Shown one piece after another: positions 3,045-61,967 of a stretch of DNA of 64,000 bases. The DNA comes from Leclercia sp. S52 (GTDB taxonomy: Bacteria; Pseudomonadota; Gammaproteobacteria; Enterobacterales; Enterobacteriaceae): positions 3,534,001 to 3,598,000 of the forward strand of contig NZ_CP152474.1 in assembly GCF_039727615.1 (NCBI RefSeq), in the 5' to 3' direction. Both the position numbers and the translations under genes were made by a program. The notes beneath the pieces were generated by a model, which was not told the DNA's origin, made no database searches, and was given only the letters and a program-made list of their open reading frames with translations. The first letter of the stretch is position 1. Every line of letters begins with the position of its first letter.

Positions 3045-4081
3045 TTAGTGGGGGCCACGCAGCTGTTGCTGTAATGTTAGCAGGATTTCCACCTCTTCAA
3101 GCCTGCGCTGCGTCGTGCGGCTCACCTCTTCCGGATCGCGGGCAAACAGGCTCTGCTCACCCAGAATATGCTCCGCCAGGCAGCGCTCATAGATCGTGCC
3201 GCCAAAACGCCAGGAGTGAACCTTATCGCCATCGATCAGCTCAAGCACATCTTCTGCCCCGCGTCGGTCATGGCTGATAATGCGTCCATCCCGCAGATAC
3301 AGCCGCAGCCCTTTTTGCCCGCCGGACGGCCCGGCATATTTGTTAAGCCAGATATCCACCGGCACGCCGCCGAGCAGCCCCTGAAGATGCGCTTCGCCTT
3401 CCGCCGTGGTCAGGTCGCCTCTGGCGATATCGCGCCCCAGACGGTCTCTGGCCTCCACAACCTGCAGGGCTATATCACCGCTTCCTCCCAGATAGCGCAG
3501 CGTTTCGCGCAGCATCGCCAGCACGTGCGTGCCGATATCGAGGATCACCCCCGTCAGGATGACGAAGCGTTCGGGTGTCGGGTTCCCCGGTGGCGAAGTT
3601 GAGCGCGATGGGCTCCCCCCGCCGCGTTAAACCCGCTCGGCTCCTGTAAAAAGCCCTCGATGCGGACGATATCCGAAAAGGTGTTGACCAACCCCAGCTG
3701 CACGAGGTTAATGCGTGCCATCCAGTGATCGAGCGCCAGCACCCGGGCGGCCGCCTCCGGCCTCGCCAGCAGCGTTTTCAGCCTGGCGATTTGGGCAAGT
3801 GTAGCGACCACCGGCTTTTCGACCACAATGCGCGGGATGGAAGACGCCAGCGCCTGCTCAAGCACCTCAAGGTGCTGCAGCGATGCGGTGGTAATAAACA
3901 GCGTATCGGGGGATTGGGCGAGGAGATCGGCAAGCGAAGGACATCGGGTGACGCCATCAAGCGTCTTAGCCGGCTGGATATCAAACCCCAGACAGTGGAG
4001 GGAAGCGCCAAAGGTATGTTGTAGTGCGGGTAAGTAGGCGGTTTCAACCACCGCGCCAAGTCCAACAAACCCAATCTGCAT
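3045..4081 (-). CDS. Gfo/Idh/MocA-family oxidoreductase (two homopolymer frameshifts)
   Basis: NAD(P)-dependent dehydrogenase family. The N-terminal part (from 4081) begins MQIGFVGLGAVVETAYLPAL, a Rossmann dinucleotide-binding turn, and contains the EKPVV motif with the family's conserved Lys near residue 94. The C-terminal alpha/beta domain, containing DIGTHVLAMLRET, lies in another frame. Two +1 shifts break the gene: a C6 run at 3615-3620 and a C5 run at 3548-3552. Removing one base from each joins the frames through AAGEPIALNFATGEP and DGVILDIGTHV, giving about 344 aa, the normal family length. Substrate is unknown. It sits in the same direction just downstream of the POT transporter (62-bp gap), so co-transcription is plausible. 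E. coli has no equivalent here. Confidence 0.8.
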
Positions 4082-4143
4082 ATATCACCTCTGTCGTGGC
4101 AAGGCCGGAGCGTAACCTACGCCCCGGCCAGCTCAGGCGGATA

Positions 4144-5698
4144 TCAGACGTTGGTTACCGGTTTCGGCTCGTTTTTGGTTTGCGCATTTTCCAGCATACG
4201 ACGCACCGGAACAATGAGCACAATCAGAACAGCGGCACAAATCAGCAGCGCGATGGAGCAGCGCGCGAAGAGGTTCGGCAGCAGCTCCAGCTGATCGGCT
4301 TTAACATGGCCGCCAATCAGACCCGCCGCCAGGTTGCCCAGCGCGCTGGCACAGAACCACAGGCCCATCATCTGGCCACGCATTCTTTCCGGCGCCAGCA
4401 ACGTCATCGTCGCCAGACCAATCGGGCTCAGACACAGCTCACCGAGGGTCAGCATCAGGATACTGCCCACCAGCCAGAACGGCGATACCCCCGCTCCACC
4501 GTTGTTGAGGACGTTCTGTGCCGCCAGCATCATCAGGCCAAAGCCCCCCTGCTGCACACAGAATGCCGATCACGAATTTGGTGATGCTGCCCGGACGGAT
4601 GTTGTTGCTCGCCAGCTTCGGCCAGGCCCAGCTAAAGACCGGTGCCAGCAGGATAATAAACAGGGCGTTAATTGACTGGAACCACACCGCCGGGATTTCA
4701 AAATCACCGATCATGCGGTTGGTGTAGTCGTTGGCAAACAGGTTGAACGAGGTCGGCTTTTGTTCAAACGCCGACCAGAAGAAGGCCGCAGAAACCAGCA
4801 GGATAAAGCACACCAGCAGGCGGGCGCGCTCTTTGCGGTTCAGGCCGGCAAACATGAACAGCCAGATGAAGTACAGGGCCACCGAGGCGGCAATCACGTA
4901 CACCAGCACGCTGGCCACCGCGACCGGGTTAATGACAATCACGCCCTGCGCAATCAGGGTGACAATAATCGCCACACCCGCCGCCAGCGCCAGTAACCAG
5001 CCGCCAACGCCATTTTTCTTCACCACCGGACTGTTCCAGGTGGAGTCCAGCCCCACTTCGCTGTCGTAGCGCTTCATCGACGGCACGGCAAACAGGCGGA
5101 AGATGACCAGCGCCACCAGCATGCCGATGCCGCCAATACCAAAGCCCCAGTGCCAGCCGTGGGATTTAATCAGCCAGCCGGAGATCAGCGGCGCGATAAA
5201 CGACCCCATGTTGATGCCCATATAGAACAGCGAGAAGCCGCCGTCACGACGCGCATCGCCCTTTTTATACAGCGTGCCCACCATCACCGAGATACAGGTT
5301 TTGAACAGGCCCGAGCCCAGGACGATAAACATCAGGCCGATAAAGAACAGGTTGTTGCCCATCACCGCCGACAGCGCAATCGACAGGTGGCCGAGGGCAA
5401 TCAGAATTGAGCCGTACCAGACCGCTTTCTGCTGGCCGAGCCAGTTATCCGCCAGCCAGCCGCCCGGCAGCGCGGCCAGGTACATGGTTCCGGCGAAGAT
5501 ACCGACGATAGCGGAGGCATTTTCACGCGCCAGCCCCATGCCGCCGTCATAGACGGTGGCCGCCATAAACAGGATCAGCAGCGGACGAATACCGTAAAAC
5601 GAGAAGCGCTCCCACATCTCCGTGAAGAACAGCGCGCCGAGCGGATAAGGATGGCCGAAGAAAGTTCGGCTTTCGTTTTTATTAACAGAGGATTGCAT
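4144..5698 (-). CDS. POT (PTR2) family proton-dependent peptide transporter (one frameshift)
   Basis: Multi-pass inner-membrane symporter of the POT family, which imports di- and tripeptides with protons. It has the family signature EMWERFSFYG near residue 28, corresponding to the ExxERFxYYG proton-coupling motif, then GGWLADNWLG and the FSLFYMGINMGSFIAP signature. ATG at 5698 is preferred over an upstream ATG at 5737 because GGGAGA lies just before it. A C6 run at 4544-4549 causes a +1 shift; with five C the frames join through CAAGGFGLMMLAAQ to give about 517 aa, normal for POT. The sequence is unlike E. coli DtpD in its N-terminus, so a peptide substrate is a family inference only. It is accessory, inserted between yfgJ and der. 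Confidence 0.85.
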
Positions 5699-5909
5699 AA
5701 TTCTCCCGAGATGATGTGTCGTCGTACTTGTAAACACCGGAAACCCGCCGCCCGGTTAACGTTCAGGTGGCTTTTTTTACATCCGGCGAAATGTTATTTA
5801 ACCATTTGATAACCTAAGGCAACTTTTGTCCAGCCCCCAACCCACCACCAAAAGATGAAAGTTCGACAATCGTCTTATTTCTTAGATTTTATGTTGGATA
5901 AACATGAAT

Positions 5910-5925
5910 AGTGATTGACATCACA
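5910..5925 (-). promoter_or_regulatory. CRP-like binding site upstream of the POT gene
   Basis: Read on the minus strand the site is TGTGATGTCAATCACT, matching the CRP consensus TGTGA-N6-TCACA at nine of ten key positions. It lies about 210 bp upstream of the POT start, within the 301-bp gap 5699-5999 that otherwise holds only the der terminator and AT-rich DNA. Regulation by CRP is inferred; no promoter boxes were confidently placed. Confidence 0.5.
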
Positions 5926-60141: not shown

Positions 60142-60227
60142 AAGTCTCTCGTCTTCGAAGCGCCGGAGGCGCTTACAGTGTGCGCAAGGGGGAAAACGGG
60201 CGCCATTATAGTGGATCCTGAGCGCCG

Positions 60228-60243
60228 ACGAAACCGTTTGCGT
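60228..60243 (-). promoter_or_regulatory. PurR operator of purL
   Basis: ACGAAACCGTTTGCGT, a 14-of-16 match to the PurR consensus, 86 bp before the purL start. Confidence 0.82.
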
Positions 60244-60408
60244 CGTAATAAAATCGACGTTGCCATTTAACCATCGGTGTTGCCTTTCCCGCTAATAAGT
60301 TGCCAAGTGGCGTTACTTTGCGCAAAATGCCGCGAAATCTTTGGTAATACTTGTTTTTACTATGGCCAATACTAACCAGAACAATAGACAGCACATAGAA
60401 TCAACTTA

Positions 60409-61967
60409 TTGAAAAAATTAAAGATTAATTATCTGTTCATCGGCATAGTGACCTTGCTGCTGGCAGCGGCCCTGTGGCCTTCAATCCCCTGGTTCGGCAA
60501 AGCCGAAAACCGTATCGCCGCTATTCAGGCGCGGGGGGGAGCTGCGCGTCAGTACCTTGTCCTCGCCGCTGACCTACAGCGCGATCAACAACAAAGTGAT
60601 TGGCCTGGATTATGAACTGGCGCAGCACTTTGCTGACTACCTGGGCGTGAAGCTTAAAATTACCGTACGTCAGAACATCAGCCAGCTGTTTGACGATCTG
60701 GATAATGACGATGCCGATATGCTGGCCGCCGGTCTGGTCTACAACAGCGAGCGCAGCAAGAACTACCAGCCCGGCCCCACCTATTACTCCGTGTCGCAGC
60801 AGCTGGTCTATCGCGTCGGCAGCCTGCGCCCGCGTAACCTTGCCAGCCTCACCGCCGAGCAGCTTACCGTCGCCCCGGGTCATGTGGTGATTGATGACCT
60901 GCGGGCGCTGAAAGAGAAGAAGTACCCCAACCTCAGCTGGACGGTGGATGAGAAGCAGGGCACCACGGCGCTGCTCGAGCAGGTCACCGACGGCAAACTG
61001 CCCTACACCATCGCAGATTCGGTCGCTATCAGCCTGTTCCAGCGTGTCCACCCGGAGCTGGCGGTGGCGCTGGACGTTACAGACGAGCAGCCCGTTACCT
61101 GGTTCAGCCCCCCTCGATGGCGACCAGACGCTCTCCGCCGCGATGCTCGATTTCTTCAACGGGATGAATGAGGACGGCACCCTGGCGCGTCTGGAGGAGA
61201 AATACCTCGGCCACGGGGATGACTTCGACTATGTCGATACCCGCAGCTTCCTGCGGGCGGTGGATAACGTGCTGCCGGACCTGCAGCCGCTGTTTGAGAA
61301 GTACGCCCAGGAGATCGACTGGCGCCTGTTGGCGGCCATCTCGTATCAGGAGTCGCACTGGGATGCGCTGGCCACCTCACCCACCGGCGTACGCGGCCTG
61401 ATGATGCTGACCAAAAACACCGCCCAGAGCCTGGGCCTGACCGACCGCACCGACGCCGAGCAGAGCATCAGCGGCGGCGCACGTTATCTGCAGGATATGA
61501 TGGCTAAGGTACCGGAGACGGTACCGGAAGAGGAGCGGATCTGGTTTGCACTGGCGGCCTACAACATGGGGTATGCCCATATGATTGATGCCCGCGCCCT
61601 GACGGCAAAAACCAAAGGTAATCCCGACAGCTGGGCAGACGTTAAACAGCGCCTGCCGCTGCTGAGCCAGAAGCCGTATTACGACAAATTAACCTATGGC
61701 TATGCGCGCGGCCACGAGGCGTACGCCTACGTGGAGAATATCCGCAAATATCAGATAAGCCTGGTAGGGTATCTGATGGAGAAAGAGCGAGAGGCGCAGG
61801 CGGCACAGCAGCTGGCACAAAGCTATCCAGTGGTGTCGCCGGACGAGCTTACTCGCCCGATAACTTCGATTCTGCCTTTTGTCTCTTTTTCTGCTGACGC
61901 CGCATTCGAAAGAACTCACTTAGCATCTCCGAACACGCTGGTGCCAGCACCCCTCCCAACACATTAA
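60409..61967 (+). CDS. mltF: Membrane-bound lytic murein transglycosylase F (two frameshifts)
   Basis: Lytic transglycosylase with an N-terminal membrane/signal segment ([16 protein letters not shown]), a periplasmic solute-binding-like regulatory domain and a C-terminal SLT catalytic domain ([19 protein letters not shown] with catalytic Glu; [11 protein letters not shown]). TTG at 60409 is the start, as in E. coli. A G7 run at 60533-60539 and a C6 run at 61108-61113 each add one base; correction gives [10 protein letters not shown] and [12 protein letters not shown] and 518 aa, the E. coli length. Its last 119 bp overlap tadA on the other strand. Confidence 0.95.

Follow-up and report, generated by a model that had tools for sequence, protein, structure and literature searches.

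Introduction

Residual errors in homopolymer length are known from bacterial assemblies made from long reads only, as described in two reports (PMC8011154, PMC8812927). According to the counts in an excerpt of the first, a Flye draft of Pseudomonas aeruginosa contained 14,394 insertions and 439 deletions, which polishing with Racon and Medaka lowered to 704 and 324, respectively, and an Elizabethkingia anophelis assembly contained 1,114 insertions and 7,891 deletions after the same two programs (PMC8011154). Here, we describe a window of 64,000 nucleotides from Leclercia sp. S52 (bases 3,534,001-3,598,000 of a single, Leclercia-like contig of 4,932,897 bases, or 4.93 Mb) in which thirteen short homopolymers interrupt ten conserved genes. 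An earlier sequence-only reading had proposed that each of these runs carries one surplus base and that a base-calling or assembly artefact is the simplest explanation. Comparison with relatives and sampling of the rest of the genome indicated that the 13 extra bases are almost certainly homopolymer overcalls made during sequencing or assembly throughout this genome record. They would thus be an ordinary artefact that tells nothing about the bacterium itself.

Results

Among the 80 of 278 loci kept, the named relatives closest to this genome over approximately 13 kb were Leclercia adecarboxylata UBA3338, with a DNA identity of 95.3%, and Leclercia sp. 29361, with 94.0%. Leclercia sp. 29361, complete according to its title, served as the collinear comparator (93.6% identity across 63.9 kb of the window), and the window was also compared with five more genomes of the same genus group. 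All 13 homopolymers were found with the base, start and length first reported for them, and 12 of them were one base shorter in every aligned relative. Scored as single gaps, the sites at 53187, 54405, 55038, 59883 and 60533 were unanimous against 7/7 relatives and the site at 16937 against 5/5. A frame change was detected at all 13 sites against Leclercia sp. 29361, directly at 11 of them and only as a mirror image at 4544 and 16937. All ten genes are broken in this record, and the relatives carry intact copies of each. The sequence-only reading had held that the same shifts in independent genomes would mark them as real; no such recurrence was found in the relatives compared. A scan for clusters of frame breaks supported by at least three source genomes returned 11 clusters in the window versus 0, 0, 0, 1 and 1 in five relatives treated in the same way. 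One of the 11 merges the sites at 3548 and 3615, and two others (near 25721 and 32920) resemble gene-edge effects and lie outside the 13. At any level of support, the window had 17 clusters versus 13, 10, 9, 13 and 14 in the relatives, where most were single-source and many were mirror images of the broken frames of the window.

Genes in the window were named from a family search. On the minus strand, two C runs (3548-3552 and 3615-3620), each one base longer than in the 5/5 aligned relatives, break the same Gfo/Idh/MocA-type oxidoreductase gene (pieces at approximately 3045-4081). Further C runs, each one base longer than in 6/6 aligned relatives, break a peptide:H+ symporter gene (run 4544-4549; open piece 4439-5737, minus strand) and pbpC (run 16937-16942; pieces 15129-16958 and 16795-17454, minus strand), and a T run with the same support (38254-38260) lies in a DUF1007 gene on the minus strand. 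The remaining sites with an extra base against 7/7 relatives are concentrated towards the end of the window: a C run in glrR (53187-53192, minus strand); two C runs (54405-54409 and 55038-55043) in the adjoining frame of 477 amino acids, which had no NCBIfam match and which we take to be glrK from its position; a G run in purL (59883-59888; open piece 56253-59813, minus strand); and a G run and a C run in mltF on the plus strand (60533-60539 and 61108-61113; open piece 60948-61967). The weakest site is the C run at 38043-38049, which changes the frame of a NicO-type transporter gene on the minus strand; it lies in a variable stretch, is shorter by one base in 4/6 relatives and by two in 2/6, and had one source in the cluster scan. 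The C run at 41625-41631, in an aldose-1-epimerase-like gene on the minus strand, showed its frame change against one relative only, Leclercia sp. 29361, because the segment is absent from the five other genomes. This segment (41320-48420) encodes a sugar transporter, a DUF5107/TPR protein, a ROK-family protein and the broken aldose-1-epimerase-like gene; it is present in Leclercia sp. 29361 and absent at this place in the five same-genus relatives.

When the translated open pieces of mltF and pbpC were used as queries, full-length relatives were found at identities of up to 97% and 94% (among the best 120 of 8000 and best 120 of 7989 matches, respectively). Several short MltF entries of 316-326 amino acids (among them P0005, P0008 and P0056) were also present in other records, one of them a cluster with 57 members; these may be fragments or broken copies. 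Given such entries among the matches listed, independent records with a broken mltF may exist.

The frame breaks were not confined to the window. Leclercia sp. 29361 was compared with this genome in 20 random stretches placed at common ABC-transporter anchors, 10 stretches at essential clusters, 20 test-set stretches and the window. Shifts were counted by their remainder modulo 3, using only pieces of at least 20 amino acids and at least 75% identity. Testing 968 comparator frames revealed a +1 shift in 101 cases and a -1 shift in 9 (random 33 and 2, window 9 and 2, essential 12 and 1, test 47 and 4). With the scan reversed, an extra base was indicated in the comparator at 7 shifts and a missing base at 44, some of these 44 being mirror images of the 101 above. 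At least one longer G/C run of five or six bases was found in 34 of the 51 pieces, window included, under strict run comparison. Across the whole genome, isolated 7-base C or G runs numbered 292, versus 78, 80, 61, 96, 70 and 65 in six relatives. In favour of gene decay local to the window, the rate there is nominally higher (6/27 G/C runs of five or six bases lengthened versus 56/422 elsewhere), as it is for runs of length 5 in the first two sets (5/24 versus 16/219, P=0.04). The pooled difference is nevertheless not significant (P=0.24), so that the window is not an outlier, and decay of this kind is contradicted by the genome-wide spread, with at least one frame break in 18/20 random stretches; we regard its probability as negligible.

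Lengthening depended steeply on run length. Run tables excluded runs whose immediate flanks differed between the two genomes, as well as one 3 kb overlap between stretches. G/C runs longer than in the comparator amounted to 1/13,309 at length 3, 4/2,399 at length 4, 46/407 at length 5 and 16/42 at length 6; the corresponding values for A/T runs were 6/1,152 at length 5, 30/379 at length 6 and 8/96 at length 7. The earlier statement that mostly G/C runs are affected thus stands as a matter of rate, although A/T runs of 5-7 bases are also longer (44/1627). Gains prevailed over losses in both classes (62 to 4 among 449 G/C runs of five or six bases, 44 to 9 among A/T runs of 5-7 bases). The proposal that all changes are insertions is right for the broken genes and too broad for the window as a whole, since two other runs are one base shorter here than in Leclercia sp. 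29361, at 60188-60192 (upstream of the 1295-amino-acid purL frame) and at 36231 (non-coding). Two G/C6 runs described as spared, at 25308 and 40275, are real; the aligned relatives have stretches of the same length there with other letters inside. Longer G/C runs of five or six bases occurred at the same rate in coding (55/401) and non-coding DNA (7/48, P=0.83).

The 23S ribosomal RNA (rRNA) genes provided an internal replicate. Among the eight copies in this genome, a G6 site was longer in 3/8 and a C5 site in 1/8, fractions that match the genome-wide rates for G/C6 and G/C5 runs. In three relatives, all 24/24 copies agreed at both sites (0/24 longer at each). An example of such a site lies near 901200-901390 in genome coordinates. 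A cell with such discordant 23S copies would be odd, and assembly error arising copy by copy is a simple explanation. These data also bear on the proposal that the longer runs are real and that programmed frameshifting or slippage during transcription allows the proteins to be made from them. Slippage is possible on such homopolymers, and protein conservation carries on at both sides of every break. The sites are not conserved, however, and relatives have the shorter run with an open frame. Moreover, non-coding DNA is equally affected and only some rRNA copies are hit, sites that recoding cannot explain; we therefore consider it exceedingly unlikely.

Essential clusters were sampled deliberately after the random stretches: 43 comparator frames were flagged in those stretches and 30 run against NCBIfam, and none of those named is known as a classical essential gene. 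Broken frames were found in murD, tsf, cdsA, dnaE and tilS, all of which are essential in E. coli, and a lengthened run was found in rplX. Eleven of the 12 extra-base shifts in the essential set were inspected, and 10 of these 11 lay in or beside a homopolymer. In mismatch-repair mutators, homopolymer slippage increases with run length. A hypermutable lineage, for example one without mismatch repair, could thus have gained +1 slippage mutations with the length dependence seen here, and no very close relative is available here to date the changes against. Several results are nonetheless difficult to reconcile with such a lineage: of the repair genes, mutS and mutL were examined and both are open (875 and 620 amino acids), essential genes are broken, G/C runs bear no trace of selection between coding and non-coding DNA, gains outnumber losses by 62 to 4 and the 23S copies disagree. 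We judge this explanation very unlikely.

The chance of lengthening also depended on flanking letters. In the first two sets, TG came next in 11/21 lengthened C5 runs versus 22/222 unchanged ones. In the test set, for which the hypothesis was fixed before the sequences were fetched, 10/25 C5 runs with TG next were lengthened versus 15/139 without (P=0.0009); all sets together gave 21/58 versus 25/349. Similarly, T6 runs preceded by C were lengthened more often in both halves of the data (12/86 versus 5/163 and 11/54 versus 2/76 without C), the halves having been split only after a pooled look. This dependence would fit base calling in which several letters are read together. It could also reflect a real +1 mutational process with flank preferences (for example, for C5 before TG and for T6 after C), provided that the lineage restores the reading frame of its essential genes and so stays viable, a combination that we find extremely improbable.

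Other possible determinants were considered and set aside. Dcm methylation (CCWGG) would single out C5-TGG, lengthened in 12/22 cases, and C5-AGG, lengthened in 1/11; C5-TGC was lengthened in 8/27, and the cause is therefore not Dcm as such. An apparent block of exclusively plus-strand C7 runs (0.27-2.96 Mb) reflected a listing that had left out reverse hits. With the terminus placed at 2.4 Mb, an assumption made from gene order, the +1 rate at length 5 over all sets did not differ between leading (28/230) and lagging strands (18/177, P=0.64); an early lean (16/141 versus 5/102) was not repeated (12/89 versus 13/75).

Discussion

Collectively, the essential genes hit, the rRNA discordance, the equal rates of longer G/C runs in coding and non-coding DNA, the steep length dependence and the replicated flank bias uphold an artefact as the simplest reading of the thirteen sites. 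Since an artefact fits these five observations and a living genome hardly does, we conclude that the extra bases are almost certainly consensus errors of the deposited assembly, in which short homopolymers were given one base too many; G/C runs with a true length of 5-6 bases are the main targets, and A/T runs of 6-7 bases are affected less frequently. The chance of error depends on run length and flanking letters and not on gene content, and accurate reads would never have been used to correct the errors. In the living cells, the genes are most likely intact. We infer that the errors arose when bases were called or the consensus was built, in an assembly of draft quality that probably relied on long reads; the literature consulted contained nothing attributable to this strain or its sequencing platform.

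Several points weigh against this interpretation. Longer A/T runs of six or seven bases lean towards non-coding DNA (coding 21/327, non-coding 17/148, P=0.07), as do A/T6 runs in the first two sets (8/184 and 9/65, P=0.018), and part of the longer A/T6-7 runs are therefore probably true intergenic differences. The TG effect was absent at C6, where 0/4 runs with TG and 16/38 without were lengthened. The frames of rpsB, rplB, rpoB and ftsZ are open, and the essential-cluster set had a lower rate of longer G/C runs of five or six bases (6/72 versus 56/377), a difference that is not significant (P=0.19). The whole assessment was made from assembled sequence, and the sole dense comparison used one genome, approximately 93% identical. 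Finally, the excess of gains differs from the main long-read assembly of the Kastor report, Pss508, in which most indels are false deletions, according to an excerpt of that source (PMC12007338).

If the sampled density holds (101 shifts in approximately 0.95 Mb aligned), about 500 frames would be broken genome-wide, and inferences on pseudogenes, gene loss or gene content from this genome would then be unsafe. The quality values of the genome (completeness 99.96%, contamination 0.13%) do not hint at many broken frames. Comparing rRNA copies inside one assembly offers a cheap, read-free test for such errors.

Among known cases, mismatch-repair mutators share with this genome homopolymer changes that rise with run length; unlike in such mutators, mutS and mutL are open here, and the changes extend to essential genes and to individual copies of the rRNA genes. 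The resemblance to long-read-only assemblies, as far as the relevant passages of PMC8011154 describe them, lies in one-base errors, in short homopolymers, over the whole assembly. Unlike the E. anophelis isolate, for which the same passages report an excess of deletions (PMC8011154), gains dominate here, by 62 to 4 in G/C runs. Similarly to the cases covered in an excerpt of the Kastor report (PMC12007338), relatives are intact, homopolymer indels break genes and the same kind of test brings them to light.

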